A stretch of 31,088 nt of DNA from a virus, in IMG/VR virus record IMGVR_UViG_3300021197_000337, positions 1 through 31,088 of that record; one strand, given 5' to 3'. A model generated the notes under the pieces. The model made no database searches. It saw only the letters and a list, made by a program, of their open reading frames with translations, and was not told the DNA's origin. Position numbers and translations under genes: made by a program. This document shows positions 1,789 to 31,088 of the stretch, piece by piece. Numbering within the stretch: position 1 is the first letter of the stretch; every line of letters begins with the position of its first letter.

Positions 1789-2032
1789 AAATTTAATCAT
1801 AGAAAAAACAAAAGAAGGAACCACTAAAACTAAAGGTGGTTTACTTCTTGCAGAAACTCATAGAGATGACATTAGATATGTAAAAGCTAAAGTTGTTTCA
1901 ATAGGTGAAGAAATTAAAGGAATAGACAAAGGTTCTGAAATATTTTACGATAGACACGCTGGTCATAAAATAGAAATTGACAAACAGCCTTATCATGTTA
2001 TAAAAGCTCAAGATGTTGTTGTAGTGTTATGA
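1772..2032 (+). CDS. groES: GroES-like co-chaperonin (Cpn10)
   Basis: 86 residues, against about 97 for bacterial GroES. It starts MKAIGRNLIIEKTKEG, matching the first beta strands of the Cpn10 fold. A mobile loop with KTKGGLLLAET (20-30) stands where GroES has the GGIVL contact for GroEL. It ends QPYHVIKAQDVVVVL, like the GroES terminus (ESDILAIVEA). Between VVSIGEEI and GIDKGSEIFY it lacks about eight residues that form the roof hairpin in E. coli GroES; phage T4 gp31 is known to lack this roof too. The ATG lies inside the end of the GroEL gene (17-base overlap), which suggests coupled translation. Its partner should be the GroEL-like protein upstream, although binding to host GroEL is also possible. 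Confidence 0.88.
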   Translation: MKAIGRNLIIEKTKEGTTKTKGGLLLAETHRDDIRYVKAKVVSIGEEIKGIDKGSEIFYDRHAGHKIEIDKQPYHVIKAQDVVVVL

Positions 2033-8691: not shown

Positions 8692-8899
8692 GGTTGCAAA
8701 AGAACCTATAGTAGATTCAGACGATGATATATCAGCTGATAGACTTAAAAATGCAGCTGCTACAAAAAAGCTAGCTATATTTGATGCTTTTGAAATATTA
8801 AGTAGAATACAAACAGAGCAAGATATATTAGATGAAAAACCTAAAGAAGTTAAAAAAGAAACTACGTTTCGTGGTTTTGCTGAAGGGAGATCTAAATAA
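8624..8899 (+). CDS. Possible terminase small subunit or conserved pre-terminase protein
   Basis: 91 residues, mostly helical: LSIIRAGQVAVEELIKVAK, DDDISADRLKNAAATKKLAI and FDAFEILSRIQTEQDILDE, then a basic tail TFRGFAEGRSK. The 68-base overlap with the preceding gene is large; a TTG at 8645 would shorten it, but the ATG at 8624 works. The position immediately before the large terminase gene, the size and the helix-rich make-up fit a small terminase subunit, which binds DNA and passes it to TerL. No helix-turn-helix is obvious, so the call rests mainly on position. Confidence 0.45.
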   Translation: MKTKETKLSIIRAGQVAVEELIKVAKEPIVDSDDDISADRLKNAAATKKLAIFDAFEILSRIQTEQDILDEKPKEVKKETTFRGFAEGRSK

Positions 8900-11109
8900 T
8901 GTATAAGCAAACTTTATATAAAATATTAAAAGACCATATAAAACCTAAAGTTCTTAAACGAATGAATAGGTTTAAAAAATGGGAGTATGGATATAACGAA
9001 GATCATGATATAATTGTTATATCTAGAACAGGTCAGATTGGTGATATTTATGAGATACAAAATCTTAAAATAGCTTTACCTAAACAAAACGATGTTTACG
9101 AATTTGAAGAAAACAAGTGGACTAGGTTTGATTATCCAAAACAATTACAAAGAATAAAAACAGTATTTGATTGGAGAGAATATCCTGATGATTTTAAAGA
9201 AATGTGGTATGACTACATTAATCTTGAATTTAAAAGGCGTGAAGAAGGTTTTTGGTATATAAATAAAGATGTGCCTATATACCTAACTGGTACTCATTAC
9301 ATGTATTTGCAATGGTCAAAAATTGATGTTGGCCAACCAGACTTTAGAGAATCAAACAGATTATTTTTTATATTTTGGGAAGCTTGTAGAGCAGATGACA
9401 GAAGTTACGGTATGTGTTATTTAAAAAATAGACGATCTGGTTTTTCATTTATGGCTTCTGGTGAAACTGTTAATATGGCTACTATATCTAGTGACGCTCG
9501 TTTTGGTATATTATCTAAATCAGGTGCTGATGCTAAAAAAATGTTTACAGACAAAGTAGTACCAATATCAGTTAACTACCCTTTCTTTTTCAAACCAATA
9601 CAAGACGGTATGGATCGACCTAAAACAGAACTAGCATATCGTGTGCCAGCTTCTAAGTTTACAAGAAGATCTATAGTGTCTACAGATAAACAAGAAGATC
9701 TTACAGGACTTGACACAACTATTGACTGGAAAAACACTGGAGACAATGCTTATGATGGTGAAAAACTAAGATTATTAGTACATGATGAAAGTGGTAAGTG
9801 GGAAAGACCTAATGATATACAAAACAATTGGCGTGTTACTAAAACAACATTAAGACTAGGTTCTAGAATTATAGGTAAATGTATGATGGGATCAACGTCA
9901 AATGCTTTAGATAAAGGTGGTAGAAATTTTAAAAAATTATATGATGACTCAGATGTTACGAAAAGAAATGCAAATGGACAAACCCGTTCAGGACTCTATT
10001 CTTTGTTCATACCTATGGAATGGAACTACGAAGGATACATTGATTCTTATGGGTATCCTGTTTTCGAAACCCCATCAAAACAAGTGTATGGGCCTCATGG
10101 AACGCCAATTAAAATCGGGGTCATTGAATACTGGGATAATGAAGTAGAAGGTCTTAAAGATGATCAAGACGGATTAAATGAATTTTACAGACAGTTTCCT
10201 CGTACAACTAAACATGCTTTTAGAGATGAATCTAAAATGTCTTTATTTAATCTAACTAAGATCTATCAACAAATAGATTTTAATGAAGATTTAAAAAATT
10301 CACTATCAGTTACGCAGGGTAATTTTCAATGGGAAAATGGTGAAAAAGATACTAGAGTAATATTTGCACCAAGTAAGCAAGGAAGATTTTATATAACTTG
10401 GGTGCCACCAGTACACTTACAAAACAAAAGATTTATTAGACATAGTGTTAGTTACCCAGGTAATGAACATTGTGGAGCTTTTGGTTGTGATCCATATGAC
10501 ATATCAGGTACAGTAGATAAAAGAGGTTCTAACGGTTCTTTACATGGTTTAACTAAATTTAGCATGGAAGAAGTACCACCAAATCATTTTTTCTTAGAAT
10601 ATATCGCTCGTCCACAAACAGCTGAAATATTTTTTGAAGATGTACTTATGGCTTGTGTATTTTATGGCATGCCAATATTAGCAGAAAATAATAAACCTAG
10701 ATTACTCTATTATTTTAAACGTAGAGGTTATAGAGGTTTTGCAATGAATAGACCTGATAAAAAAAGAAATAAATTATCTGTAACAGAAAGAGAAATTGGT
10801 GGAATACCAAACTCTAGTGAAGATATAAAGCAAGCACACGCTTCAGCTATTGAAACTTACATTGAACATTTTGTAGGTTTAAAAGAAACGGGATATGGAG
10901 ATATGTATTTTCAAAGAACGTTAGAAGATTGGTCTCAATTTAATATAAATAATAGAACATCTCATGATGCTTCTATTAGTTCTGGACTTGCGTTAATGGC
11001 CTGTAACAAACATAGATATGCGCCAGCAAATAAAATACAATTGAAACCAGTTGATCTAGGTATAAAAAAATACAATAACCAAGGAACTACATCAAAAATT
11101 ATAAATTAA
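8899..11109 (+). CDS. terL: Terminase large subunit (packaging ATPase-nuclease)
   Basis: 736 residues. It powers DNA packaging into the prohead and cuts the concatemer. The ATPase half has a degenerate Walker A at 175-184 (LKNRRSGFSF, in place of GxxxxGK[ST]) and a clear Walker B, RLLVHDE (291-297, D296/E297). MMGSTSNALDKGG (329-341) matches the coupling motif III. The nuclease half (RNase H-like) has GCDPYDISG with D531 and D534, the strand-rich GMPILAENNKPRLLYYF, and a final HDASIS with D690 as candidate metal ligands. The length is greater than the usual 450-600 because of an N-terminal extension of about 150 residues. The gene starts right at the previous stop and overlaps the portal start (TAATG), the classic terL-portal order. 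Confidence 0.88.
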   Translation: MYKQTLYKILKDHIKPKVLKRMNRFKKWEYGYNEDHDIIVISRTGQIGDIYEIQNLKIALPKQNDVYEFEENKWTRFDYPKQLQRIKTVFDWREYPDDFKEMWYDYINLEFKRREEGFWYINKDVPIYLTGTHYMYLQWSKIDVGQPDFRESNRLFFIFWEACRADDRSYGMCYLKNRRSGFSFMASGETVNMATISSDARFGILSKSGADAKKMFTDKVVPISVNYPFFFKPIQDGMDRPKTELAYRVPASKFTRRSIVSTDKQEDLTGLDTTIDWKNTGDNAYDGEKLRLLVHDESGKWERPNDIQNNWRVTKTTLRLGSRIIGKCMMGSTSNALDKGGRNFKKLYDDSDVTKRNANGQTRSGLYSLFIPMEWNYEGYIDSYGYPVFETPSKQVYGPHGTPIKIGVIEYWDNEVEGLKDDQDGLNEFYRQFPRTTKHAFRDESKMSLFNLTKIYQQIDFNEDLKNSLSVTQGNFQWENGEKDTRVIFAPSKQGRFYITWVPPVHLQNKRFIRHSVSYPGNEHCGAFGCDPYDISGTVDKRGSNGSLHGLTKFSMEEVPPNHFFLEYIARPQTAEIFFEDVLMACVFYGMPILAENNKPRLLYYFKRRGYRGFAMNRPDKKRNKLSVTEREIGGIPNSSEDIKQAHASAIETYIEHFVGLKETGYGDMYFQRTLEDWSQFNINNRTSHDASISSGLALMACNKHRYAPANKIQLKPVDLGIKKYNNQGTTSKIIN

Positions 11110-13490
11110 TGAATATATATACTAATACCAATAGTGCTTTCCCTAGTCAAGTAGTGAGTGATGCTGAAAAAGCAAGTATTGAATATGGAAGTCAAGTTGC
11201 AATGGCTATTGAATATGAGTGGTTTCGTTCTGGAAGAACTCAAGGTAATAGATATTTAACTAACTGGAATCAGTTCCATGAATTAAGACTATATGCTCGT
11301 GGTGAACAAAGCATACAAAAATACAAAGATGAGTTATCTATTAATGGTGACTTGTCTTATCTTAATTTAGACTGGCAACCAGTTCCTATATTATCTAAAT
11401 TTGTAGATATAGTTGTAAACGGTATATCATCTAAGTCATATGATATAAAAGCTTATGCTCAAGATCCAGAGTCTGTAAAAGCAAGAACAAAATATGCTTC
11501 TAAAATACAAGAAGATATGATGGCTAGAGAGTATTTAGATGGATTAAAAGAAAGTCTGGGTATTAATTTATACCAAAGCATGGATCCGTCTAGTTTACCT
11601 GAAACTCCAGAAGAATTAGAGTTGCATATGCAGCTTAGTTACAAGCAGTCAATTGAAATAGCAGAAGAAGAAGCTATATCATCTGTATTAGCTCAAAACA
11701 AATATGATCTTACTAGACGTAGATTAAATATGGATTTAGCTACAATAGGTATAGCAGCTGCTAAAACCAACTTTAATACAGCAGAAGGAATTACAGTTGA
11801 CTATGTTGATCCTGCTTATATGGTTTATTCATATACTGAAGATCCAAACTTTGAAAACATATACTATGTAGGTGAAGTTAAAAACATAACTTTACCAGAA
11901 TTAAAAAAAGAATTTCCAAACATTAGTAAAGACGAATTAGAGCGCATACAAAAAATGCCAGGTAATCGTCAATACTTAACTGGTTGGAGTGGTTATGATG
12001 AAAACACTGTGCAAGTAATGTATTTTGAATACAAAACTTATCACAATCAAGTTTTTAAAATAAAACATACAGATCAAGGATTAATGAAAGCTTTAGAAAA
12101 AGATGATTCATTTAATCCACCAGAAAATGATAGTTTTGAAAGAGTTTCTAGATCTATAGAAGTCTTATATACTGGTGCTAAAGTTTTAGGTACAGACACA
12201 ATGTTAGACTGGAGATTAGCTGAAAACATGTCAAGACCTATGGCAGATACAACTAAAGTAGAAATGAATTATTCTATTTGTGCTCCTAGAATGTATAAAG
12301 GTAGAATAGAATCACTTGTAAGTAAGTGTGTTGGTTTTGCTGACATGATACAGTTAACTCATTTAAAATTGCAACAAGTGTTATCTAAAATGGTTCCTGA
12401 TGGTGTTTATTTAGATATGGACGGTTTAGCAGAAGTTGATTTAGGTAATGGCACAAACTATAATCCAGCAGAAGCATTAAACATGTATTTCCAAACTGGT
12501 AGTATTGTTGGTAGATCATTAACTCAAGACGGTGATATGAACGCGGGTAAAGTACCTGTTCAAGAATTAAGTTCTAGTTCTGGTCAAGGTAAAATACAAA
12601 GTTTAATACAGACGTATCAATATTATTTACAAATGATACGTGATGTGACCGGACTTAATGAAGCAAGAGATGGTAGCACACCAGACAAACAAACATTAGT
12701 AGGTTTACAAAAAATGGCTGCTAACGCTTCTAATGTTGCTACGCGACATATCAAACAAGGAAGTTTATACGTAACATTAAGAATAGCTGAAAATATTGCT
12801 CTTAAAATAGCAGATGCTTTAGAATTTCCACTAACAGCTGAATCTCTTTCTAACTCTGTAAGTAATTATAATGTCAACACTTTACAGGAAATTAGTAATT
12901 TAAACTTACATGACTTTGGTATATTCTTAGAATTAGAACCAGACGAAGAAGAGCAAGCTCAATTAGAAAACAATATACAAATGGCTTTACAGCAAGGTGG
13001 TATTGATTTAGAAGACGCTATAGATTTAAGACAAATAAAAAATCTTAAGTTAGCTAATCAAATGCTTAAAATAAAACGTAAAGCTAAAGGTAAGCAAGAC
13101 CAAGAAAATCAAATACAACAAAGTCAAGCACAAGCACAAGCTCAAGCTAGTGCAGCTGAAAAAATTGCAATGTCTGAAGTTCAAAAACAAGAAGCTATAT
13201 CAGGTTCTAAAGTACAGTTTGAACAAGCTAGCAATCAAATGGAAATACAACGTATGCAATTAGCTGCTCAAATAGAGCAACAAAAAATGCAAACACAATT
13301 TCAGTTTGATATGGAATTAAAGAAAATGGACATGGAAGCAATAGGAAAGAAAGAACAAATGATCGAAGATCGCAAAGATAAACGTATTAAAATGGAAGGT
13401 ACTCAACAGAGTCAAATGATAGATCAAAGAAAAAATGATTTATTACCAATAGATTTTGAACAACAGAATCAACAAGCTCCAGTAGCTTAA
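11109..13490 (+). CDS. Portal protein
   Basis: 793 residues. The portal forms the twelve-subunit ring at one capsid vertex through which DNA enters and leaves. The N-terminal half is a mixed alpha/beta body containing LSKFVDIVVNGISSKSYDIK. The diagnostic region is the stem/crown helix MIRDVTGLNEARDGSTPDKQ (509-528), followed by TLVGLQKMAANASNVATRHI. The C-terminal 130 residues are a Gln/Ala/Met-rich coiled coil (QAQAQAQASAAEKIAMSEVQ...) matching the long barrel helices seen in some podovirus portals. Its place between the large terminase and a scaffold-like gene agrees. Family assignment is by pattern and order. Confidence 0.82.
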   Translation: MNIYTNTNSAFPSQVVSDAEKASIEYGSQVAMAIEYEWFRSGRTQGNRYLTNWNQFHELRLYARGEQSIQKYKDELSINGDLSYLNLDWQPVPILSKFVDIVVNGISSKSYDIKAYAQDPESVKARTKYASKIQEDMMAREYLDGLKESLGINLYQSMDPSSLPETPEELELHMQLSYKQSIEIAEEEAISSVLAQNKYDLTRRRLNMDLATIGIAAAKTNFNTAEGITVDYVDPAYMVYSYTEDPNFENIYYVGEVKNITLPELKKEFPNISKDELERIQKMPGNRQYLTGWSGYDENTVQVMYFEYKTYHNQVFKIKHTDQGLMKALEKDDSFNPPENDSFERVSRSIEVLYTGAKVLGTDTMLDWRLAENMSRPMADTTKVEMNYSICAPRMYKGRIESLVSKCVGFADMIQLTHLKLQQVLSKMVPDGVYLDMDGLAEVDLGNGTNYNPAEALNMYFQTGSIVGRSLTQDGDMNAGKVPVQELSSSSGQGKIQSLIQTYQYYLQMIRDVTGLNEARDGSTPDKQTLVGLQKMAANASNVATRHIKQGSLYVTLRIAENIALKIADALEFPLTAESLSNSVSNYNVNTLQEISNLNLHDFGIFLELEPDEEEQAQLENNIQMALQQGGIDLEDAIDLRQIKNLKLANQMLKIKRKAKGKQDQENQIQQSQAQAQAQASAAEKIAMSEVQKQEAISGSKVQFEQASNQMEIQRMQLAAQIEQQKMQTQFQFDMELKKMDMEAIGKKEQMIEDRKDKRIKMEGTQQSQMIDQRKNDLLPIDFEQQNQQAPVA

Positions 13491-14751: not shown

Positions 14752-16203
14752 ATGAGTTTAAATCCACAATTTGGTAGTATTGTACCAAGTCCTATTCAAA
14801 CTCCATCACCTTCAGCTTATTTAGCTTTTAACGGTGGGGCGAATGACTTTGCACAACAATATTTACCAGAAATTTACGAACAAGAAGTAGAGCGTTATGG
14901 AAACAGAACGTTATCTGGCTTCTTAAGAATGGTAGGCGCTGAAATGCCTATGACATCTGATCAAGTAATTTGGTCAGAACAAAACAGATTACACATATCT
15001 TACGATGGATGTGCTTTAGCTGCTGCTGGAGCAAACAATGCATCTGTAGTAACAATTGGTGGTGGTGCTACTGCTATCAACGTTATATCTATTAATGATA
15101 CTGTTGTCCTTCTAGACCCTAATTCAGGATCTGAAGCAAAAGGTATTGTTATAGCTAGAGCTGCTGGAGCTGGTGGTGCTGGAACTGTTACAGTTCAGCC
15201 ATTTGCTAACGCAACTTTCCCTAACCAAGGAATTGGTGCTGCTGGAATTAAGATGTTTGTATACGGTTCTGATTACACAAAAGGAACAACTATTGGAGCA
15301 GGAGTAGGAAACTCTGCTGCTAGAATATCTATTGATCCTTCTTTCACACAATTTTCTAACTCACCAGTGATCATAAGAGATCAGTACGTTGTTACTGGAT
15401 CTGATATGGCTCAAATCGGTTGGGTTGAAGTTGCTACTGAAGACGGTGCTTCTGGATACCTTTGGTATTTAAAAGCTGAGTCTGAAACTAGATTACGTTT
15501 CGAAGATTACTTAGAAATGGCAATGGTTGAAGGTGAATTAAACGTAAACGCTGCAGCTGCTGCAAATTACGTACAAGCTAACTTACCAGGTACACAAGGT
15601 TTATTTGCTGCTATTAGAGCAAGAGGTAACGTGCAAGTAGGATTTACTGCTGCTGCTGGACTTGATGAGTTTGATGCAATACTTAAAAACCTAGATACTC
15701 AAGGAGCTATTGAAGAAAACATGTTATTCTTACAGAGACAAACATCTCTTGATTTTGACGATATGTTAGCTTCTATCTCTGGTGGTTTCGCTGGTGGTAC
15801 TGCTTTCGGTTTATTCGAAAATTCAGAAGAAATGGCTTTAAATCTTGGTTTCTCAGGATTTAGAAGAGGTTCTTATGATTTCTATAAAACTGACTGGAAA
15901 TACTTAAATGATGCTTCCACTCGTGGTGCAATCGTTGGTGTTAATTCAATCGAAGGTGTATTAGTTCCTGCTGGAACATCTACAGTTTATGATCAAATCT
16001 TAGGTACTAACATTAGAAGACCTTTCTTACACGTAAGATATAGAGCTTCTCAAGGTGACGACAGAAGAATGAAATCATGGTTAACTGGTGGTGCTGGTGG
16101 AGCAATGACTTCTACGCTTGATGCAATGCAAGTTAACTTCCTATCGGAAAGATGTTTAGTAACGCAAGCTGCTAACAACTTTGTATTATTCCAAGGAATC
16201 TAA
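14752..16203 (+). CDS. Major capsid protein
   Basis: 483 residues, with composition (Ala, Gly, Asn, Thr) and length fitting an HK97-fold major capsid protein. The N-terminus MSLNPQFGSIVPSPIQTPSP is followed by a long helical segment QQYLPEIYEQEVERYGNRT, resembling an N-arm and first helix. Later DDMLASISGGFAGGTAFGLF and HVRYRASQGDDRRMKSWLTG lie in the C-terminal half, which ends AANNFVLFQGI. Gene order after portal and scaffold, codons rich in GCT/GGT/AAC, and a terminator just downstream all support a highly made capsid protein. It is likely folded by the phage chaperonin (inference). The small minus-strand ORF at 15124-15351 is antisense noise. Confidence 0.8.
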   Translation: MSLNPQFGSIVPSPIQTPSPSAYLAFNGGANDFAQQYLPEIYEQEVERYGNRTLSGFLRMVGAEMPMTSDQVIWSEQNRLHISYDGCALAAAGANNASVVTIGGGATAINVISINDTVVLLDPNSGSEAKGIVIARAAGAGGAGTVTVQPFANATFPNQGIGAAGIKMFVYGSDYTKGTTIGAGVGNSAARISIDPSFTQFSNSPVIIRDQYVVTGSDMAQIGWVEVATEDGASGYLWYLKAESETRLRFEDYLEMAMVEGELNVNAAAAANYVQANLPGTQGLFAAIRARGNVQVGFTAAAGLDEFDAILKNLDTQGAIEENMLFLQRQTSLDFDDMLASISGGFAGGTAFGLFENSEEMALNLGFSGFRRGSYDFYKTDWKYLNDASTRGAIVGVNSIEGVLVPAGTSTVYDQILGTNIRRPFLHVRYRASQGDDRRMKSWLTGGAGGAMTSTLDAMQVNFLSERCLVTQAANNFVLFQGI

Positions 16204-19154: not shown

Positions 19155-22100
19155 ATGGCACAAGCAAGAAATAATTTTGTTAGAAGCAAAATGAATAAAG
19201 ATTTAGATGCTAGATTAGTACCTGGTGGAGAGTATAGAGATGCTCAAAACGTACAGGTAAGTAAATCTGAGGGAGCTAATGTTGGTTCTTTAGAAAATGT
19301 TCTTGGTAACGAAGCTGTGTTAAACATAACCACATTAACAACTTCTAATCAAAAATGTATAGGACATGTAGTTGATGAAGATAATAATTTTGTTTATTTA
19401 TTTTTAACAAACAATTCTACTACTCTTGGGTTTAATAAATTTAATAATAGTTATATTTTAAGATATGATACAGTTTCTAATATAGGCATTGTATTAGTAA
19501 GCGGATCGTTTTTAAATTTTCGTCAATCTAATCCTATAATTGGCGTTAACTTATTAGAAGGTTTATTGTTTTTTACAGATAATTTTAATCAACCAAGAGT
19601 TATTAATGTTTTAACAGCTGCAAACGATAGCACACACTATCAAACAGAAGATCAAATATCTGTTGCAAAATATAATCCTTATCAAGCTATAGAGTTATGG
19701 CAAGAAGTAAGTCCTGCCACATCACCTGCTAGTTATGAAACTACTATGCAAGATGTTACTACTCCATATATGCCAAACGGTGGTAGTGGAGTAAGTGATG
19801 CTGGAGCTGCAGTCGGAGCTGCTAATTTTGTTATAAAAGCATTAGAAGGATCTTTACCTGTTCTTGGAGGATATACAAATCTTCCTTTTCAAGGTGCCAC
19901 TATTTCTTTTATAAATGGAGCAGGTAACATGGTACCTACAGGTAATTCGTTAACTTTAATTGGATCTGTTGTTTTTGATTCTAATGCTCAAACATGGACA
20001 ATTACACCTTCAGCTAGTATGATTGTTGCGATACCTGCTGGATCAACTGTTGTTTTTAATGCTAATCCATATTATGATGGACAGTTTGCTGGAGATCCTG
20101 ACTACCTAGAAGATAAATTTGTAAGGTTTTCATATAGATTTAAATTTGAAGATAATCAATATTCTATATTTGCTCCGTTTACACAAATAGCTTTTATACC
20201 AAAGCAAGATGGTTATTTTATGTATGTTAAACAAGATACATTAGGATTTCCTGAAACAGACGATTTAGATTCAGCATATAGAAGTACTGTTGTAAGTTTT
20301 GTAGAAAACAAAGTAGACTTAGTAAAACTAAGAATACCACTTCCTTTTCCTAAAGATGAAATAATAAATCGTTTAAAAATATCTGAAATGGATATTTTAT
20401 ATAAAGAGTCTGACGCATTATCTGTTAAAGTTATAGATACTATTCCTATAGCTGATATTGTATTAAACCCAACCATTGAACCAAGTGTATTTACATACGA
20501 TTATAATTCAAAAAAACCTTATAAAACTTTACCTGAAAATAATCTTACAAGAGTTTACGATAAAATACCCGTAAAAGCATTTTCTCAAGAAATAGCTAGT
20601 AATAGAATTATATATGGTAATTTTCAAGACAAACACACGCCGCCTATTTCTTTAGATTATAGCGTTACTGTTGGGGCTAAATCAGATTTTGATATAAATA
20701 TTTCAACAGCAACTACAAATGGAGCTGCTAACGTTGGTGTTGGTGTAGCGTTTCCTATAGACAATGCAACAGCTGTTCCAGAAATAGGCAGTATTGCTAC
20801 AGGTACTGGTATACCAGCAAACGCATCGGTAACAGCGGCAACAGCTACATCATTAACATTAAACAAAGCTGTTAATATAGCTGATGGGGTTACTATAACT
20901 TTTAATTTAGTTGGACCAGATACTAACACTGTTACAAAAGTAGAATATCCTAATTCAACATTAAAACAAAATAGAAATTATCAAGTTGGCGTAATGCTGT
21001 CTGATAGATATGGTAGAACGTCTACTGTTTTATTATCAAGCAACAAAGAAGAAGTAGCTTTACCTGGTGGTTTAACTTTTGTAGGTGATACAGTATATTC
21101 TGCTTATTTAGATTCAGGCACTAGACCAGATCAATGGCCTGGAAATTCTTTAAAAGTATTGTTTAATCAACCTATTGGTCCTGAATTACCTGATGCTGCT
21201 ACTGGTTGGCCAGGAATATATAAAGGTCCTGACTATGTTAATCCTGGTGGAAGTTTTACAAGTCCTAATAGTCTTTACAATCCGCTTGGATGGTATTCTT
21301 ATAAAATAGTTGTAAAACAAACAGAGCAAGAATATTACAACGTTTATTTACCTGGAATAATGGCAGCATACCCTGAAGATGTTACACTAGAACTTAGTCA
21401 AACTTCACACGTGGTATTAATAAATGATAATATAAACAAAGTTCCAAGAGATTTAAATGAAGTTGGTCCTACACAAAAGCAATTTAGAAGTAGTGTTAGT
21501 TTATTTGGAAGAGTAAACAACACAACAACACCTATAGTTTTTGATACTGTTTCAGGTGCATATACAAATATAGCACAATCTAATGTTCAGTATTACCCTA
21601 ACAGAGGTGATGATGTAGTTTCTACTATATCTACAATGCAAGATTTGTTTGATTATGATCCTTCTCTTACTCCTGCTCCTAATTATTTTCCTCAATTTTA
21701 TTTATATGAATCTAATCCTTATATAGCTAGATTAAGTACTGAAAAACAAATAGGTCAAATAGCAACTACTAACTATTCACCTGTTAGCGCAGAGGTTGCT
21801 ATAAACGCTACTAGTGATGAAATATTATTAAAAAATGTAGTAGGTAATACAGGAAGCATAGCTGTAGGAGACTCAGTAACAGGAGTTGGTTTACCTTCTG
21901 ATTTAACAGTAGTTTCTCCAGGCTTTACAGCAGCAACAAGTGTTGTTGTAACAACTTCTACTTCTGCTAGCACAAGCAATATAGTTGTTGTAGCAAGCGT
22001 AACTAATATAGAACCAAACCAGTACGTTAGCGCCACTGGTATACCAGAAGGAACAGTAGTTCAAAGCATTGCAGGATCACAAGTTACATTAAGTAATGTT

Positions 22101-23471
22101 GTGGATATTGCTAATGGTGTTTCAATAGATTTTCAAACACCAGCAAAAATAAAAGTAAATCAATCAGTTACAGTTTCTTTTGATACAGAAATAACTATAG
22201 TAAAAACAGATACACCAGGTTTACAGTACTTAGCCGTAATGGAAACAGAGCCGGTAGAAAGTTTATTAGATATATTTTGGGAAACCACATCAACAGGTTT
22301 AATAGAAGATTTAAATACTTTAATATTAAACTCAAGCGAAGGTGGTGCTAATTTTAGTTCTTTTAATTCTTCTTTATTTAAAGAATCTTTAGCAGATCAG
22401 TCTAATATATTAAGCGCTAATTTTACTTTGGTTGATTTTTTTGGTGCTGTTATTAATCCTGCTAATATAACTAGCTTTGTTATAGAATCTGTAACAAATG
22501 CTAATGCTACTGATGTAACTAATTTCTTTACATTAAACAGTATCGGTGCTGGTTATTTCAATGTTAAAACTACTACTACTTATTATAATTCTATATTTTT
22601 TAGCAATGACGCAAGCCTACGTACTTTTGTAATAACATTTAGATCAGTTACAACTGTCTCAGGTAACGCAACAACTACAACTTATAACGAAACAATAACA
22701 CTAGCAAATGTAGATCCAACAATACCAGCTGCTACACCTGCTGCTGGATCAACGGTTCAAACAAATAGATATGAACAAAGTCTAGCGGTATTAGATGGTA
22801 TTAATGGTGCTAACAATGTTAACCTTAGAACTCAAGATTTAACATGGGAAATAATTAGTGTATTTAACACTACTAGCGCACCTTCAACTGATATAGGACC
22901 TAACGGTAGTAATTTAGGTTATTTTACAATTCCAACTACTGTAGCTTCAAATAATTTAAGAGCTACATTAACAAACGCGTCTGGTGGTAATATGCCTCCA
23001 GAAGTTTATCAAGTTAATCTAAGGTTAGCAGATGCTGCTGCTTCTGTAAATGCTCAATATACTTTTAATATGTTAATAGAGCCTAATGTTGTTAGATCTC
23101 TTACGTGGCAAATAGTTTGTGATGGAGAGACTCAAGCTGATAATTTTCCAGCTGTAGAAATACAAATAACAGACGGATCAGCATCACCTACACAACAAAA
23201 TGGTTGGTATATTTTTCCTGTGCCTTGGGGTACATTAGTTAATGCTAACGGTGCTAATGTTATTACAATAGACAGAACAAACGCGAGATTAACAAACCCA
23301 TCAGGAGCAGCATGTCCTTCATATGGTGACGCTTTCTTTTCGCCTACATCAAGCGCTGCTGTTAGAGCTTTATGGATAGCTAGTGATTGTACTTGTTCAA
23401 GTGGTAACACAGGTAACATAACTAGCACTAGCAATATAGATGTAACGGGGTATTTATTTGAAATTATATAA
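19155..23471 (+). CDS. Giant tail-nozzle / stabilization-like protein with repeated beta modules
   Basis: 1,438 residues, far longer than a T7-type nozzle (about 800). The N-terminus is diagnostic: FVRSKMNKDLDARLVPGGEY (8-27), then RDAQNVQVSKSEGANVGSLE, the signature of the tail-nozzle/stabilization family of short-tailed phages. Conserved blocks reappear at about 270-500 (VRFSYRFKFEDNQYSIFAPF, NRIIYGNFQDKHTPP) and at about 1020-1053 (METEPVESLLDIFWETTSTG). Between them, related beta modules at about 516-588 and 880-996 carry the pattern GTGIPxNxxV...LTLxxxVNIADGVxI. From about 1060 on, cadherin/Ig-like segments follow and it ends with a Cys-containing part (SDCTCSSGN). It should form the tail spout, with accessory receptor-facing domains. 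The next ORF carries what looks like the rest of the nozzle. Confidence 0.65.
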   Translation: MAQARNNFVRSKMNKDLDARLVPGGEYRDAQNVQVSKSEGANVGSLENVLGNEAVLNITTLTTSNQKCIGHVVDEDNNFVYLFLTNNSTTLGFNKFNNSYILRYDTVSNIGIVLVSGSFLNFRQSNPIIGVNLLEGLLFFTDNFNQPRVINVLTAANDSTHYQTEDQISVAKYNPYQAIELWQEVSPATSPASYETTMQDVTTPYMPNGGSGVSDAGAAVGAANFVIKALEGSLPVLGGYTNLPFQGATISFINGAGNMVPTGNSLTLIGSVVFDSNAQTWTITPSASMIVAIPAGSTVVFNANPYYDGQFAGDPDYLEDKFVRFSYRFKFEDNQYSIFAPFTQIAFIPKQDGYFMYVKQDTLGFPETDDLDSAYRSTVVSFVENKVDLVKLRIPLPFPKDEIINRLKISEMDILYKESDALSVKVIDTIPIADIVLNPTIEPSVFTYDYNSKKPYKTLPENNLTRVYDKIPVKAFSQEIASNRIIYGNFQDKHTPPISLDYSVTVGAKSDFDINISTATTNGAANVGVGVAFPIDNATAVPEIGSIATGTGIPANASVTAATATSLTLNKAVNIADGVTITFNLVGPDTNTVTKVEYPNSTLKQNRNYQVGVMLSDRYGRTSTVLLSSNKEEVALPGGLTFVGDTVYSAYLDSGTRPDQWPGNSLKVLFNQPIGPELPDAATGWPGIYKGPDYVNPGGSFTSPNSLYNPLGWYSYKIVVKQTEQEYYNVYLPGIMAAYPEDVTLELSQTSHVVLINDNINKVPRDLNEVGPTQKQFRSSVSLFGRVNNTTTPIVFDTVSGAYTNIAQSNVQYYPNRGDDVVSTISTMQDLFDYDPSLTPAPNYFPQFYLYESNPYIARLSTEKQIGQIATTNYSPVSAEVAINATSDEILLKNVVGNTGSIAVGDSVTGVGLPSDLTVVSPGFTAATSVVVTTSTSASTSNIVVVASVTNIEPNQYVSATGIPEGTVVQSIAGSQVTLSNVVDIANGVSIDFQTPAKIKVNQSVTVSFDTEITIVKTDTPGLQYLAVMETEPVESLLDIFWETTSTGLIEDLNTLILNSSEGGANFSSFNSSLFKESLADQSNILSANFTLVDFFGAVINPANITSFVIESVTNANATDVTNFFTLNSIGAGYFNVKTTTTYYNSIFFSNDASLRTFVITFRSVTTVSGNATTTTYNETITLANVDPTIPAATPAAGSTVQTNRYEQSLAVLDGINGANNVNLRTQDLTWEIISVFNTTSAPSTDIGPNGSNLGYFTIPTTVASNNLRATLTNASGGNMPPEVYQVNLRLADAAASVNAQYTFNMLIEPNVVRSLTWQIVCDGETQADNFPAVEIQITDGSASPTQQNGWYIFPVPWGTLVNANGANVITIDRTNARLTNPSGAACPSYGDAFFSPTSSAAVRALWIASDCTCSSGNTGNITSTSNIDVTGYLFEII

Positions 23472-23505: not shown

Positions 23506-25002
23506 ATGGGAGCAGTAGTAGAAGTAAAATATTTTAACTCTTTTGTTCTTAAGAAGACTGTAAACAGCGTTGTAACTCCTGATCAAGTTATATGGAACGG
23601 ATCGTTTGGCATACCTCAAGCTAAAGGTGGTTATCCTGTAGTTAATGCTGTTAGTACAAATGGAGATAATAATTGGGCTATTGAAGAATCAAGAATTAGA
23701 GGAGGTTATAATAACGTTTCTACTGATTATGGTGCTAAAGCTTATTTAGTTGAAGAAGAACCTGATGCTGTTACTAGAGGTAATTCATTAATATACTCTG
23801 GTATATTTAATTCAAGAACTGGTATAAATAATACAAATGTATTTTCTGTAGCAGATGATATTACAAAAAGCGCAGATCCAGCTAACGGAACTATACAAAA
23901 ATTATATGCAGAAGATACTAACTTAATTATATTTCAAGAAGCAAAAGTTAGTAGAGCATTAGTAGATAAAGACGCTATATATACTGCTGAAGGCGGAGGA
24001 GCTATTACTAATTCAAATTTAACAATTGGTACAATACAACCTTTTCCTGGGCAATTTGGAATAAGTAAAAATCCAGAAAGCTTTGCTATATATGGTTATA
24101 ATAAATATTTTACTGATAAAAATCACAATGTTGTAATGAAGCTTGGTGGTAACTTAGATGAGATATCTAGGTTTGGTATGATTGATTATTTTAGAGATGA
24201 ACTAGTTGCTAGTGATACTATTTTAGGTGCTTGGGATATATATAATGACCAGTATGTTTTATCACTACAACAAACAAAATCAGGTAACTTTAACACTTTG
24301 TCTTATGATGAACAAGTGCAAGGTTGGACTAGTTTTTATAACTATAAACCTGACCAGATGTTTAGTATAAAAAATAACTTTTATAGTATAGCCTCTGTTG
24401 GCGCAGCTGTTCCAGGTTATGCTTTAAATAATTATGCCGTTTACAAGCATTACTCTGATACTGCTAACAGAAGTAATTTTTATGGAATAGATTATAGAAG
24501 TTCTGTTACGTTTATATTAAATGTCAACCCTACTACTTCTAAGAATTTTAAAACAATAGGATACGAAGGCGCTAGCGGATGGCAATTATCTACTTTAGTT
24601 TCAGACGGAACAGGAACTGGTTTAAGCCCAGCGTCAGGACAATGGATAACATCTAATGATGAATCAGCTTTAGTACTAAGTTTACTTGAAGGTGAATACG
24701 TATTTAATCCAGTTGGTGGAGCTCCTGTTACAAGAGCTAATTATCAAGGAACATTAGGAACTACACAACCTCCTTTACCAAGATACTATGCAGGGTTTAA
24801 TAGAAAAGAAAATAGATATGTAGCTAATTTAATTAACAATAGCAACGCTTCAACAGGAGAGATATTGTTTGGCTCAGAAATGAGTGGCGTAAAAGGTTTT
24901 TATGTTACTGGAGTTTTAGCAACAGACTTAATTACAAATCCTGGAGGAGAAAAACAATTATTTTCAGTGATATCAGATTACGATATTAACAATGGATATT
25001 AA
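23506..25002 (+). CDS. Tail structural protein, nozzle C-terminal-like part
   Basis: 498 residues, entirely beta-type composition. Signature blocks are NWAIEESRIRGGYNN (56-70), LIYSGIFNSRTGINNTNVFS (about 95-114), LYAEDTNLIIFQEAKVSRAL, DAIYTAEGGGAITNSNLTIG, and FGISKNPESFAIYGYNKYFT. These remind me of the C-terminal half of tail-nozzle/stabilization proteins in related Bacteroidota phages, where they may belong to the same chain as the upstream gene. Here it is a separate gene with its own ATG. The short gap holds a ten-codon ORF, and there is an in-frame stop (23497) just upstream, so a simple ribosomal frameshift is not needed. Probably a beta-propeller-like part of the tail tip. Confidence 0.62.
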   Translation: MGAVVEVKYFNSFVLKKTVNSVVTPDQVIWNGSFGIPQAKGGYPVVNAVSTNGDNNWAIEESRIRGGYNNVSTDYGAKAYLVEEEPDAVTRGNSLIYSGIFNSRTGINNTNVFSVADDITKSADPANGTIQKLYAEDTNLIIFQEAKVSRALVDKDAIYTAEGGGAITNSNLTIGTIQPFPGQFGISKNPESFAIYGYNKYFTDKNHNVVMKLGGNLDEISRFGMIDYFRDELVASDTILGAWDIYNDQYVLSLQQTKSGNFNTLSYDEQVQGWTSFYNYKPDQMFSIKNNFYSIASVGAAVPGYALNNYAVYKHYSDTANRSNFYGIDYRSSVTFILNVNPTTSKNFKTIGYEGASGWQLSTLVSDGTGTGLSPASGQWITSNDESALVLSLLEGEYVFNPVGGAPVTRANYQGTLGTTQPPLPRYYAGFNRKENRYVANLINNSNASTGEILFGSEMSGVKGFYVTGVLATDLITNPGGEKQLFSVISDYDINNGY

Positions 25003-25013
25003 AATAAATAAAT

Positions 25014-25682
25014 ATGAGTATATTAATAGGTAGCGCCATAAGTGCTGGAGCTAGTATAATCGGTGGAATTATCGGTGGCGGTAAAGCTAGAAGAGCTAAG
25101 AGAAGAGCTGCGAGAAAGCTTAAAAAAATGAACCGCAAGATGGAAGAGCTAGAAGCAAACAGACAGGATATAATAAATCCCTATGCAGATGTTACTAATT
25201 TAAGTAGCATGATGAGCAATCCTATGGCTAATTTATCTGTAGCTACTCAAGCTGCTGAAATGGCAATAGAGCAAACTGATATAGCTTTAGCTAATACATT
25301 AGATACTATTAGACAAACAGGTGGCGGATCTGGTGGAGCTACAGCTTTAGCTCAAGCTGCGTTACAAGCTAAGAAAGGTGTTGCCGCAGATATAGAATCT
25401 CAAGAAAAAATGAATGAAGACAAGAGAGCTGCAGGCGAACAAAGACTACAAGATGCTCAAGTACAAGAAGCTAAACGTATGCAAGATGCTGATGTTATGG
25501 GACAAAAATTTGTTTATGGTGAAACAGATAGAAGAGAAATGCAACAACTAAATAGATTACAAGGTCAAATAGATCATATGCAAGGAGTTAAAGCACAAGC
25601 AAGTGCTGATCAAACCGCTGCGTTAACAGGAGCAATATCAGGAGTAGCAGGAGCTGCAAGTTCTTATTTTGGTAATAAATAA
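25014..25682 (+). CDS. Probable internal virion / DNA-ejection protein
   Basis: 222 residues. The N-terminus is a glycine-rich hydrophobic stretch (ILIGSAISAGASIIGGIIGG, 3-22) followed at once by a very basic segment (KARRAKRRAARKLKKMNRKM). The rest is Ala/Gln-rich and helical (NPYADVTNLSSMMSNPMANL, LANTLDTIRQTGGGSGGATA, ALAQAALQAKKGVAADIESQ) and ends LTGAISGVAGAASSYFGNK with another small-residue hydrophobic patch. A membrane-active N-terminal helix plus long Ala/Gln helices after tail genes fit a T7 gp14-like ejection protein. Homology is not proven, but composition and position agree. Confidence 0.6.
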   Translation: MSILIGSAISAGASIIGGIIGGGKARRAKRRAARKLKKMNRKMEELEANRQDIINPYADVTNLSSMMSNPMANLSVATQAAEMAIEQTDIALANTLDTIRQTGGGSGGATALAQAALQAKKGVAADIESQEKMNEDKRAAGEQRLQDAQVQEAKRMQDADVMGQKFVYGETDRREMQQLNRLQGQIDHMQGVKAQASADQTAALTGAISGVAGAASSYFGNK

Positions 25683-25688
25683 TTAAAC

Positions 25689-26771
25689 ATGGAAAATAAA
25701 AACATCACATATAATCTTTTAATTAAACAATTACTGCAAAGTGATAACATGGCTTATGTTCCAGGTTATATATCATCAAACGTAGATGTTGAGTTTAAAG
25801 TACTTGACAACGCTTACCAAGATACAGGCTTACAATATGCTAGAGCTAAAAACTCTATTGATCAAGGTAGATGTGGAGACTGTATTAGAGAAAATGAAAT
25901 ACTAAACAATTTATTAGCTGCTCCAGCTTTATCAAAATTATTTTTAGAAAACTTAACTGGAGAATTAAGTATAGTAGAAACACCTCATTACGACCCTAAT
26001 AATTACTATGGTTTTATGGTGGCTAATTGTATTATAACTCAAAAACCTGGTTTTTCTAAAACTGATGGATATGATGTTGAATTAAATTTATTAGAAAACA
26101 ATACTCAAGAAATAACTTTTACAGGACCTGCATTTGATAAACCTTTTGTTGTTAATAGTTCTGCGCTTCAAAGTTTACTAGACGCTGATACGTCTTTAGT
26201 AGTAGAAACACCAGACATTAATACTAGCATGACTGAGTTATTAGTTGAAACTCAAATATTTCCACCAGATGCTATGGGCGAAGATAAGAAATTATCTGCA
26301 GCTGCAAAAATATCAGAAGAATTTATTTTAAAATTTAACGGTAAACCTGATTATGAAATTATTGACATAGGTAATGGCAAAGGTAGAAACGTAATTAGAT
26401 ACGATGTAGATAAAATTGAAAGAAAAATACAACCTTTTATAAACGCAGAGGTTTCAGGTTTATTATCTTCAGAACAAGAAGCTGTTGCTGCTTGGAACGT
26501 GTTTTTATCTAAAGGCACTAGCGTAGAAGAAGATGATCAAATGGTGCAAGATGCTAATGCGGCAGAACAGTCTTGGTCTTATGAAAAAGATCTACCATTA
26601 ATGCAAGACAAGAAAACTCAATTTGCTTTTAAATACAAAGAGTATTTTATTAATAATTATTTAAAACAATTTTTAACAAACAAATTACCTAGTGTAGAAG
26701 AAGATGCTGCTGTATTTGATTTACAGGAAGCAAGAAAAGCAAAGACAAAAGAATTAATGGGTAATCAATAA
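25689..26771 (+). CDS. Unknown virion-region protein (360 aa)
   Basis: 360 residues, not recognised. The start is MENKNITYNLLIKQLLQSDN. A CGDC pair sits at 62-65 (GRCGDCIRENEILNNLLAAP) and a lone Cys at about 112, so a redox or zinc role is conceivable but unsupported. Residues 80-180 are beta-type (LSIVETPHYDPNNYYGFMVA, GYDVELNLLENNTQEITFTG). The C-terminal third is helical and charged (LQEARKAKTKELMGNQ). It lies between an ejection-type protein and the giant protein, so it may be part of the internal core or tail interior. No membrane segment. Confidence 0.5.
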   Translation: MENKNITYNLLIKQLLQSDNMAYVPGYISSNVDVEFKVLDNAYQDTGLQYARAKNSIDQGRCGDCIRENEILNNLLAAPALSKLFLENLTGELSIVETPHYDPNNYYGFMVANCIITQKPGFSKTDGYDVELNLLENNTQEITFTGPAFDKPFVVNSSALQSLLDADTSLVVETPDINTSMTELLVETQIFPPDAMGEDKKLSAAAKISEEFILKFNGKPDYEIIDIGNGKGRNVIRYDVDKIERKIQPFINAEVSGLLSSEQEAVAAWNVFLSKGTSVEEDDQMVQDANAAEQSWSYEKDLPLMQDKKTQFAFKYKEYFINNYLKQFLTNKLPSVEEDAAVFDLQEARKAKTKELMGNQ

Positions 26772-26782
26772 AATTAAATTAA

Positions 26783-29700
26783 ATGACTAAAGAAGAATAT
26801 ATTGAAAGTTTAGTATCTCAAAACTTAACAGGTAAAGAGATCGTTAAACTCGCTGCTAAATTCGGTCAAGAAGAAAAGCAAAGCGAAGAAGAAGTAAAGA
26901 CAGACGATGTTGCAACCCAGGATGCGAATGTAACATCGACCAGAAACGAAGCGTCCAATACGACTTCAGAATCTTCGGGTGGTCAATCCGATTATGGTAT
27001 AACGCTAGATGATTTTCAAGGAAGAAATGCAATTGAACAAAAAGCAATATCTAAAGCGCTTGGTTTAACACCAGCAGAATTATCAAAAAAATTAGAAGAA
27101 CAAAAAGCAGTAGTTGAAAAAGATAATAAAAAAGAAAAAGAAAGAGAAAAAAGAATTAATTCTTTATATGATAAATATAATGGTCCATATCCAACTTCTT
27201 TACACATTAAACAAAAGGCAAAATGGTTAGATGAAAACGTTAATATACCTACGGATGAGGATATAGAAAAAATTGAAAAAGAAGAAGGAGGAGTACTTTC
27301 GACTGTATTTTCTTATGCTACTGGTGATATGGATGTTTGGGATCTTTATGAAAATGAAGCAGAAAAAGCACAAGCCATACAAGACGATCAAGATCTTAAA
27401 GATTTTAAATTTAACCAAGCTAATATTAAATATAACGAAGATGTTAAAGCAATTAGCGGTGATGAAAATCTTTCTGAAGAAGAAAGAAATATAAAATTAA
27501 ACGAATTAAAGCCACCTCCTTTAACTACTATAGAAGATGTAGAGTCTGAAGTATTAGATGTATCAGAAGAGTTTGAAGGTTTAATAAATACCTTAGGTGG
27601 TAAAGATGCAACTTTAGAAATGTTTAATGGTAATCAACTAAAGTTAGATAAATATAATGAGTATGTTGGCTTGTACGATCTTTACACAGATGTCATAGAT
27701 TCTAAGGGTAAAGGTTACAACTACAATAATGAGCTTGCAAAAGAATACGAAAAAAGATATGGAAAACTAACATATGAAGGAGCTGGTAGAAATCCTAAAA
27801 TGGACGATCCAAAATTTAGGGGTGATAAGAGAAGGTCTTTAAACCCGGAGTATCAGATATTAAGTGAAAACCAGTTAATGGAATTAAGTCTTAGAAAAAA
27901 ACAAAAAGAAATTTCTGCGGCCTTTAATGAAGAACAAGACGCTCAAGCAGATTTTATAGAAGAAGGAAGCGAAGGTTTAAGAAAGTTTTCTGGTGGATGG
28001 TATGGTAAAGACAAAAGAGTTAAAATGCTTAAGGAAACAAAAGTAAATCCTACAGCTGTAAGAATGACTCAAGATTTATTTCCAGAAAACGCTAGCTCAA
28101 TAACTAGCGATGCTGATATTGACGAAGCTTTTACGCAAGGTTATAGTAAATTAGTAAATGAAGATCCTGTTATAAATGCTTTTTATGATTCTATTAAAAA
28201 AGTAGCTGAACCATTAATAGAAAAAAAGAGAGAAGAGTTATTAAAAACAGAAGATTTAACAACACCAGAAGGAGTTGCTGCAGCAACTAAAAAATTAGAA
28301 GAATACGCTAGATCTATTACTTCAGATAAATTAGAAAATTCTGAATTATACAAAAACAGAGTAACAGAACTTGGGCTTGTAGCTAGCGCGTCTATGGAAA
28401 AAGTTAATAGGGCTTGGGCTAGAAAACAAGATACTTTTTTAAATGGTTTAGACGCTTTTAGAGGCGGAGAAAATGATGGTATACCTTTTAATGATAGTAT
28501 AGCTGATTTTGTAGAGTCTTTTTCTGCTGGTAGTATTGGTATATACAACTCATTTCAAAAAGCCGGTGTAAGTTTAGAAGGTAAAGGTGTTAGAGATATT
28601 AAAAGAAAAATAGCTGACATTGACGAAAGAGTAGCTAGTGGTGAAATAACAGAAGAAGAAGGCAACAGGTTAAAAAACGAAAAAAGACTTGTTGGTACTT
28701 CTTTATTAGAAGAACTTGTTAATGACCAAGAAGACGTTGCGCAACTAGTTGATTCAATAAACGAAATAGATGAGTATGTTGGTCTTTTTGAAACAGCGGA
28801 CTTAGCTGATGGAGATATAAGTTTTCGAGATGTTGTTTTAACTGTTGGCCAAGCGCTACCTCAAATAACAATAGCTGGTGTTACTGCAGCAGCTGCTGTA
28901 GGTACAGGAGGAGCAGCAGCTCCGTTACTAGCAGGAGTTGGTACAGCTGTTATGTTTACTCAAATGTATGGTGATAATTACTGGAGTGCTTATCAAGAAG
29001 GTATAAAAAAAGATGTAAGAAATCTTGGATTAGACTGGGATAGCATGAGTGATGAAGAAAAAAGAGAGTTTAGTTTAACAGCTCTTGAAGAAGGTAGGCA
29101 TGCTGATATAGCGGCGTCTGCTGCTTTTGCAGGTGTTATGACGTATGCTGAAAGAATAGGTGCTGGAAAAGTATTAAAATCTACACAAAAAGCTTTAGGT
29201 TTAGGTGCTACCGGTTTAGCATCATTATACGCTGGTCAATTTAAACAGTTTGGTAAATCTATGTTAAGTGGTTTATTATCTAAAAGTTATGCAGGTGCTG
29301 CAGAGTTTGGAACAGAATTTTTACAAGAAGCACTAGGACAAATAAGCACTGGCTTACAATCAGGTGATAACGCTTTAGAGTATATTGATTTTGCAGAACA
29401 AATGAATTCTGGTAAAGCAGGTGGTATAGTTGGTTTTGTACTTCCTTTTGGTGCGAGCATTGCAACTCAAACAGCGGCAGAAATTAGAAACATGTCTAGA
29501 GACGTAGCAATAAAATTTGCTCCTAATTCTGAATATGGTAAATTTTCTATAGAATCAAAAAAGTTTTTTGAAGACGCACAGTCAAATTTAGATAGGCAAT
29601 TAAAAGAAAACAAGATAACGCAAGAGCAATATCAAGAAGATTCTGCAAATTTATCTGACACAAGAAATTCTAGCTTAAAAATAGATCCTAACGCTAGTCA

Positions 29701-31088
29701 AGATATTAGAACTAGACAACTTGACTTAATGGTTAAGCGTAATCAATTAATGCGCAAAATAAAAAATACTGATGACAGTGATTTAACTCAAGCTGAACAA
29801 GCTGAATTAAAAACTGTTAAACAAGAGTTAGTTGATGTAGTTGCAGAACAAAAACTATACTCAACATCAGGTAAGGTAAGACAAATAATTCAAGACTCAG
29901 GACCAAAAGATTCTCAAGGTAGACCAATGATTGAGTTTAGAGATTTTTCTACAGCTAAAGAAACTCAACAAGAAGCTGATAAATTAGAAAGACAGGGATA
30001 CACAAGAGCGGCAGCTAGTAAAGCTCATGGAGTACAAATGATAAATGAAGCTACAGGGAAAGAAGTTTTGCTTATAAACAATGAAGTTGCTTCTGGAAAA
30101 GCAGGTCTTGTGGGTAACGTTAACGTAGCTGCTCATGAGTTTTTGCATAGTATGTTAAGAAAAACTTTAGCTAATAATCCAGAAGTTGCTCAAGAAATGA
30201 GAACTAATATGGATAATTATTTATCAAAAATAAATATTGAAAATATTGATCCTAACTCTAAGTACGGTAAAACATTAGCTCTTTACAAAAACGATCCAAG
30301 CGCTGTTACTAACGAAGAGGCTATGGTTTTGTTTGCTGATGCTTTAGCAAATGGAGATGTAGAACTTAACGAAGGCGCTTTAACTAAACTTAAAAATGTC
30401 GTAAGAAGAATAATGCAAGCTGTAGGTTTAAAAAACGTTGAATTTAAAACTGGTCAAGATGTTGTTAACTTTTTAAAAGACTACAACAACAGTATAAAAA
30501 AAGGTAAACTAAATAGAGCACAAAAAAAATTACTAGGAACAGAGCAATCAATGAAGGAAGACGGTGCTATTGCTAAAGAGTCTAGAGCTAGAGCTACAGT
30601 GTTAGAAGAAATAAACAAACTTGTGCCTCAAGATATTAAAACTAAAGCAGAGTATGATGCTTTTTTAGCTAATCAAAGACAAAGTAAACCTTTGTTTGAT
30701 GCGTTGCTAAAAGATGGTGGTGTTATAAATAATTACGTAAAAAGTAGATCTACAACTAAAGCTGAATCAGATAAAGCTATAGAAAGTTTAACTGATAGAA
30801 TACTTAATTTTAATCCTGAAGCTAAAAGAGCAGATGGAAAATCTGTAGGTATTGAAGGTTTTGGTGAAGCTATATTTGCTAACACTAGGTTTGCTAAATT
30901 AGACGCTAAAAAAGCTTTATTCAAAGAAGGTGAAAAAGCTAAGCAACAAAAAAGTATTGATGGTGGAACATTACAAATAGCTGATGAATCTACTACGTCT
31001 AAAAAAGATGATACTAAGCTAGCTAAAAAACCTACACAAACAACAGGTTTTGACAAAGCAACTGAAACTAAAATTGATGAAGCAGTAA
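26783..31088 (+). CDS. Giant ejection/polyvalent-type protein with zincin motif, 3' end cut
   Basis: Open from an ATG at 26783 to the window edge: 1,435 codons with no stop in frame. The N-terminal 250 residues are charged and helical. At about 684-900 lies a long Gly/Ala-rich hydrophobic region (VGQALPQITIAGVTAAAAVG..., GQFKQFGKSMLSGLLSKSYA) that could cross or line a membrane, as in internal ejection proteins. Then come helical charged parts and VNVAAHEFLHSMLRK: H1118-E1119-F-L-H1122 is a HExxH zincin motif, with NEEAMVLFADAL (1177-1188) as candidate third-ligand helix. This matches the zincin domains described in phage 'polyvalent' proteins. The predicted role is delivery into the host with the DNA and processing of a host or phage protein, but that is inference. 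It has an AATTAAATTAA leader. Confidence 0.65.
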   Translation, partial: MTKEEYIESLVSQNLTGKEIVKLAAKFGQEEKQSEEEVKTDDVATQDANVTSTRNEASNTTSESSGGQSDYGITLDDFQGRNAIEQKAISKALGLTPAELSKKLEEQKAVVEKDNKKEKEREKRINSLYDKYNGPYPTSLHIKQKAKWLDENVNIPTDEDIEKIEKEEGGVLSTVFSYATGDMDVWDLYENEAEKAQAIQDDQDLKDFKFNQANIKYNEDVKAISGDENLSEEERNIKLNELKPPPLTTIEDVESEVLDVSEEFEGLINTLGGKDATLEMFNGNQLKLDKYNEYVGLYDLYTDVIDSKGKGYNYNNELAKEYEKRYGKLTYEGAGRNPKMDDPKFRGDKRRSLNPEYQILSENQLMELSLRKKQKEISAAFNEEQDAQADFIEEGSEGLRKFSGGWYGKDKRVKMLKETKVNPTAVRMTQDLFPENASSITSDADIDEAFTQGYSKLVNEDPVINAFYDSIKKVAEPLIEKKREELLKTEDLTTPEGVAAATKKLEEYARSITSDKLENSELYKNRVTELGLVASASMEKVNRAWARKQDTFLNGLDAFRGGENDGIPFNDSIADFVESFSAGSIGIYNSFQKAGVSLEGKGVRDIKRKIADIDERVASGEITEEEGNRLKNEKRLVGTSLLEELVNDQEDVAQLVDSINEIDEYVGLFETADLADGDISFRDVVLTVGQALPQITIAGVTAAAAVGTGGAAAPLLAGVGTAVMFTQMYGDNYWSAYQEGIKKDVRNLGLDWDSMSDEEKREFSLTALEEGRHADIAASAAFAGVMTYAERIGAGKVLKSTQKALGLGATGLASLYAGQFKQFGKSMLSGLLSKSYAGAAEFGTEFLQEALGQISTGLQSGDNALEYIDFAEQMNSGKAGGIVGFVLPFGASIATQTAAEIRNMSRDVAIKFAPNSEYGKFSIESKKFFEDAQSNLDRQLKENKITQEQYQEDSANLSDTRNSSLKIDPNASQDIRTRQLDLMVKRNQLMRKIKNTDDSDLTQAEQAELKTVKQELVDVVAEQKLYSTSGKVRQIIQDSGPKDSQGRPMIEFRDFSTAKETQQEADKLERQGYTRAAASKAHGVQMINEATGKEVLLINNEVASGKAGLVGNVNVAAHEFLHSMLRKTLANNPEVAQEMRTNMDNYLSKINIENIDPNSKYGKTLALYKNDPSAVTNEEAMVLFADALANGDVELNEGALTKLKNVVRRIMQAVGLKNVEFKTGQDVVNFLKDYNNSIKKGKLNRAQKKLLGTEQSMKEDGAIAKESRARATVLEEINKLVPQDIKTKAEYDAFLANQRQSKPLFDALLKDGGVINNYVKSRSTTKAESDKAIESLTDRILNFNPEAKRADGKSVGIEGFGEAIFANTRFAKLDAKKALFKEGEKAKQQKSIDGGTLQIADESTTSKKDDTKLAKKPTQTTGFDKATETKIDEAV

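Follow-up and report, generated by a model that had tools for sequence, protein, structure and literature searches.

A giant protein of a marine phage joins a hydrophobic, putative ejection module to a conserved predicted zincin and probably belongs among the polyvalent proteins

The whole of the viral IMG/VR record IMGVR_UViG_3300021197_000337 (31,088 bases, hereafter the window) ends within a giant gene, which raises the question of what role is served by a phage protein that joins a Gly/Ala-rich hydrophobic region to a zincin-like metallopeptidase domain. No sequence lies downstream of the window, in which only the hydrophobic module, the zincin and a further helical segment can be seen; the complete protein is some 3,000 residues long, its missing part being supplied by relatives. 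Here we propose that it is probably a virion-carried 'polyvalent' protein, in which a hydrophobic packaging and ejection module is combined with an active zincin that is most likely self-cleaving. It represents a known type of phage protein, of a family outside the family libraries searched. An earlier sequence-only reading, made from the letters of the window, had arrived at a similar picture, and proved right in its observations and largely right in its interpretation.

Key to this proposal is the relationship of the hydrophobic module to proteins of cultured phages. The module is distinguished by its composition, with G/A/I/L/M/F/V accounting for 57.5% of its best 200-residue segment (starting at residue 695), above the maximum of 55% among 500 shuffles (mean 47.8%), and with 29 Gly and 36 Ala at residues ~690-905; the predicted helices that follow at residues ~915-1040 match the helical parts that the sequence-only reading had described. 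Hydropathy does not exceed 1.5 in any 19-residue segment of the giant protein, such that the hydrophobic stretch does not consist of consecutive typical membrane helices. Comparison by hhalign of a 112-sequence module profile with giant proteins of cultured phages identified elemoE gp18 (1.8e-12), phi38:1 gp101 (3.7e-10), phi18:3 gp123 (1.7e-5) and the giant protein of MW202828 (3.9e-4), with scores that were reached by 0/40 shuffles for each target. Clear matches were obtained from this profile only: an 11-sequence module profile gave none, a default hmmsearch with the full-length family found nothing among the cultured giant proteins, the C-terminal region gave no significant match to cultured-phage proteins, and a pattern search for relatives of the MW202828 giant protein gave no match. 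The homology so established links the module to a protein seen in virions, phi18:3 gp123, which is annotated 'experimental MS/MS proteomics analysis' (MS/MS, tandem mass spectrometry), and thereby offers indirect support for the module being carried in particles.

The same phages separate the module from the zincin. A zincin profile matched elemoE gp18 (residues 1463-1667, 5.2e-11) and the MW202828 protein (residues 2479-2563, 4e-4), but had no match in the Cellulophaga phage proteins (phi38:1, phi18:3), nor in phi-crAss001 gp47 or gp50; the module is therefore the constant part and the zincin the added part, which suggests a shared ejection module with downstream enzymes swapped between lineages. 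In elemo, MW202828 and the Cellulophaga phages the giant protein ends the structural cassette in the same slot. Flavobacterium phage elemo gp18 (3,694 residues, 'structural protein') and UOF82488 of MW202828 (3,859 residues) lie, like the window protein, after the muzzle region and share both module and zincin, but differ in their further domains (DUF3293 in elemo), in having no HAD motif that we could find, and in a C-terminus without detectable homology. Cellulophaga phi18:3 gp123 (1,935 residues) and phi38:1 gp101 (1,691 residues) share the slot and the module but are shorter and lack the zincin. A marine family of giant proteins is in this way tied to cultured Flavobacterium phages whose gp18 holds module and zincin together, so that a phage and host already in culture can now be used to test the old question of what substrate is cut by zincins in injected phage proteins.

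The sequence-only reading had further claimed a zincin with an HEFLH motif and a downstream helix, and had staked the idea on the conservation of these residues. Among 115 aligned zincin domains the first His is kept in 113, and each of the other three positions (motif Glu, second His, distant Glu) in 115/115. In a 111-sequence alignment all four ligand positions are invariant at a mean column identity of 21%, and the zinc ligands are established as intact across sequences that diverge down to ~15-20% identity. The distant Glu (E1179) is the second Glu of NEEAMVLFADAL, downstream of HEFLH, and the arrangement of HExxH on one helix and Glu on a later one is that of a zincin-like metallopeptidase. 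An HExxH motif arises by chance in 0.24% of shuffles of the giant protein, which contains only 5 His. Searched alone, the window's own zincin copy matched no known zincin family, and the 111 members gave matches to Peptidase_M78 (30, best 2e-7), SprT-like (11) and DUF3267 (8). One relative (L155) reads HEFIGH, an HExxxH form also found among polyvalent metallopeptidases (PMC5512222). Based on motif, conservation and profile matches, the domain would be an active HExxH+E metallopeptidase.

Comparison with the nearest relative (L002) offers additional insight into how the two halves came together. Synonymous divergence (dS) is ~1.2 over residues 1-912 and 0.2-0.35 thereafter, and the zincin itself has a dS of 0.244 with a nonsynonymous divergence (dN) of 0.030 (dN/dS ~0.12). 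The drop in dS after residue 912, together with the low dN of the zincin, indicates that this half probably moved between lineages in one piece and that purifying selection acts on it; modular exchange as such is established. A sharp change in divergence falls at residues ~920-950 (nt ~29540-29632), where the hydrophobic module gives way to the zincin arm, and likely marks a recombination point within the gene, at a module junction.

More domains had been anticipated beyond the window, and relatives were found to carry them. A single protein search returned 14 relatives, the zincin profile 138 loci and a C-terminal profile more than 549 loci; 173 open reading frames (ORFs) were extracted, several sharing contigs, of which 147 are complete. 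The complete proteins, from marine viral contigs, span 2,056-3,353 residues and follow one order: variable N-terminus, hydrophobic module, zincin (near-universal and at the same relative place), variable middle, HAD-like domain, and a C-terminus conserved over ~750-800 residues. The HAD-like domain reads DFDDTL ... LTAR ... FADD in 86 representatives, with DxDxT as motif I, and among 34 members tested this region matched DUF2608 (18) and Hydrolase (2). The members of one clade (L135, L142-L146, L151) carry a P-loop kinase insert that separates HAD motif I from motif II, as in L142, where residues 1603-1990 match PF13671 AAA_33 (E 4e-16) and Zeta_toxin (1e-11); this kinase within a phosphatase resembles polynucleotide kinase-phosphatases by content, not by arrangement. 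In addition, the middle region between zincin and HAD, as seen in L003, contains a nearly invariant Glu-His pair, EEHxxPA, in a conserved domain without classification. Neither the full-length family proteins tested (against Pfam, PHROG and NCBIfam) nor the window protein searched directly (against Pfam, PHROG and PDB) gave a convincing match, and tblastn of the latter found none in INPHARED; this is a large marine family of giant proteins that is not listed in Pfam, PHROGs or NCBIfam. In genome contigs the C-terminal region occurs only in those of metagenome-assembled genomes (L202-L216) labelled Woesearchaeota, Aliivibrio, Bacteroidetes and others. A prophage origin was rejected on this ground, such contigs being likely binned virus.

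The polyvalent proteins that phages and conjugative elements encode, which include DdrB of P1 and the N4-type virion RNA polymerase (Iyer et al. 2017, PMC5512222), are defined by their virion-gene context and delivered with the DNA; a zincin is their commonest domain, with self-processing its likely role (PMC5512222). The family described here shares their very large multidomain build, their neighbourhood of virion genes (the giant gene lies among late genes) and an HExxH zincin with a later-helix Glu joined to unrelated enzyme domains, several of which occupy one polypeptide in complete relatives (zincin, HAD-like domain and, in one clade, kinase). It differs in that its zincin fits the Pfam metallopeptidase families poorly (best Peptidase_M78), with no polyvalent MPTase family or LPD domain among the full-protein matches or the 25 commonest zincin-scan matches; in that no RNA polymerase, ParB or methylase domain was found; in its partners, which are a HAD phosphatase-like domain with an occasional kinase insert, the region of the Glu-His motif and an unclassified conserved C-terminus; and in the attachment of its zincin to a hydrophobic module common to Cellulophaga phage virion proteins. 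By analogy we infer packaging of the window protein, its injection, proteolysis and self-cleavage. The hydrophobic module would most likely serve packaging beside the portal and then ejection through tail and envelope, while the zincin, which meets the module at a junction prone to recombination, would most likely cut the giant polypeptide itself, either in the head or after entry. Such cleavage could free the downstream units (the HAD phosphatase-like domain, in some with kinase, and the conserved C-terminal region) for separate action in the new host. Action at the start of infection, as the sequence-only reading had imagined, is likewise suggested by analogy with polyvalent proteins (PMC5512222).

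Several points weigh against this proposal. The particle evidence does not reach the zincin half, since phi18:3 gp123, the protein with the MS/MS annotation, lacks a zincin. No cleavage site was identified in the giant protein. Two aligned relatives (L106, L107) read EELFH and have thus naturally lost the first ligand, which implies that activity is dispensable somewhere; a third (L130) is similar, with EEIFH, and the degenerate zincins of all three lie at residues ~1050-1170. Lastly, the structure prediction that had been recommended for the zincin region yielded a helix-rich AlphaFold2 model of moderate confidence (predicted local distance difference test, pLDDT, 74; predicted template modelling score, pTM, 0.50), and Foldseek found no zincin, nor any match at E <= 0.001 for either of the models searched.

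The same observations bear on other roles for the zincin. Once injected, it may act as an effector whose target, as infection begins, is a host protein of defence or metabolism and not the giant protein, a role that is allowed for polyvalent zincins (PMC5512222) and that we consider unlikely here, if by no means negligible. Its absence from phi38:1 and phi18:3, despite the same module and cassette, is what an accessory effector would show, as is its sequence diversity across the family with ligands retained; its near-universal presence in the family at one relative place, however, suggests a task of general use, self-processing for instance, and not a lineage-specific target. Self-processing is, in our assessment, as likely as attack on a host protein, or likelier. 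The location of the gene within the structural cassette would also suit an assembly protease of the prohead type, maturing capsid or scaffold proteins before packaging. This we consider very unlikely, as cultured relatives with the same cassette do without the zincin, an accessory distribution not expected of an essential assembly protease, and in at least two relatives the motif has degenerated to EExxH; moreover, known prohead proteases tend to be encoded by small genes of their own beside the capsid gene. That the zincin fold has a structural role only, its motif kept by common descent, is likewise very unlikely: the first His is lost in a few members and peptidase activity is itself a prediction, but the Glu, His and distant Glu persist in 115/115 domains at such low identity, and dN/dS is ~0.12.

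In the helical segment that follows the zincin, residues ~1275-1401 weakly resemble sigma-70 region 2 in register (E 0.04-0.7; hhalign E 0.039). Applied to 20 records of relatives, PF04542 (Sigma70_r2) did not match the giant ORFs, hence sigma identity is kept only as a lead; the cut-off was exceeded in 5/20 records, by separate genes of 249-260 residues. Such a separate sigma-70-like gene occurs in L189 (G018 64361-65110) and in nine other records (L182-L191). As for a crAss-type virion RNA polymerase, the 71.5-kilobase, near-complete relative G018 has, judged by ORF size in this one record, no ORF of that size apart from those of the giant protein and the muzzle. An N4-type or crAss-type polymerase identity for the giant protein was rejected, DFDDTL being HAD motif I, with LTAR and FADD after it. 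One could imagine the giant protein as the injected start-up kit of a lineage that has given up the crassvirus virion RNA polymerase, in which zincin processing would free two units, one sigma-region-2-like and directing the polymerase of the host to early promoters, the other a HAD end-repair unit (kinase-plus-HAD in one clade) mending nucleic acid cut by host defences; we give this scenario a slim chance.

The giant gene is the last of a structural cassette, downstream of genes for the terminase large subunit (TerL), portal, capsid, a tail protein and muzzle (Table 1). TerL and portal place the phage with Caudoviricetes MW202828 (62% and 51% identity, respectively), the Flavobacterium phages elemo (44% and 41%), Cellulophaga phi38:1, phi13:2 and phi18:3 and Tenacibaculum Gundel_1; among named groups, Pervagoviridae, Pachyviridae and Elemovirus come nearest. 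Of the muzzle and capsid proteins by which membership of the Crassvirales was judged, the muzzle qualifies through crAss_MUZ in both of its pieces, and the capsid match is short of the cut-off. The phage is of Bacteroidota type, and its tail is crassvirus-like.

Table 1. Coordinates of features in the window.
Feature	Position	Strand	Remarks
GroEL, phage-encoded	235-1788		Cpn60 1e-62; start of structural region
GroES, phage-encoded	1772-2032		Cpn10 1e-11; overlaps GroEL gene
Terminase large subunit (TerL)	8899..11109	+	phrog_6681
Portal protein	11109..13490	+	phrog_6547
Major capsid protein	14752..16203	+	phrog_13704; Crass_capsid E 0.005, short of cut-off
Crassvirus-type muzzle protein, N-terminal piece	19155..23471	+	PF25731 (crAss_MUZ), E 6e-12
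Crassvirus-type muzzle protein, C-terminal piece	23506..25002	+	PF25731 (crAss_MUZ) 7e-10, PF25729 2e-6
222-residue protein	25014..25682	+	Gly-rich hydrophobic N-terminus, rest helical; no family match
360-residue protein	25689..26771	+	between muzzle and giant gene; no family match
Giant protein gene, 5' 1,435 codons	26783..31087	+	open at contig end, no stop
N-terminal 559 residues	26783..28459	+	charged, coiled-coil-like; poorly conserved, 43% identical to nearest relative L002
Residues 560-912, with Gly/Ala-rich hydrophobic module	28460..29518	+	homologous to same-slot giant proteins of cultured phages
Helical arm, residues ~915-1040	29525..29900	+	predicted helices; divergence from L002 changes here
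Zincin domain, residues ~1036-1255	29888..30546	+	conserved NFLKDYN segment at its end
HEFLH zinc-binding and catalytic motif, residues 1118-1122	30134..30148	+
E1179, candidate third zinc ligand	30317..30319	+	invariant; in NEEAMVLFADAL
Helical segment	30605..30985	+	sigma-70 region 2-like (weak lead; no match to PF04542)

In phi-crAss001, cargo proteins encoded right after the muzzle gene are stored in capsid and tail, behind the portal, and their ejection before the DNA has been proposed (PMC10172136). Of its cargo proteins gp45-gp47, gp49 and gp50, the genes of gp45-gp47 likewise follow the muzzle gene (PMC10172136), a position comparable to that of the giant gene; no homology of gp45-gp50 to the hydrophobic module or zincin was found, and the phages differ in that G018, the relative of the window phage, lacks a gene of the size of the crAss-type RNA polymerase. 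The 222-residue protein encoded just after the muzzle is possibly a small ejection protein. Furthermore, the muzzle protein is encoded in two ORFs, as also seems to be the case in G018, and the chaperonin genes with which the structural region opens have counterparts in the elemo phages, which likewise encode chaperonins.

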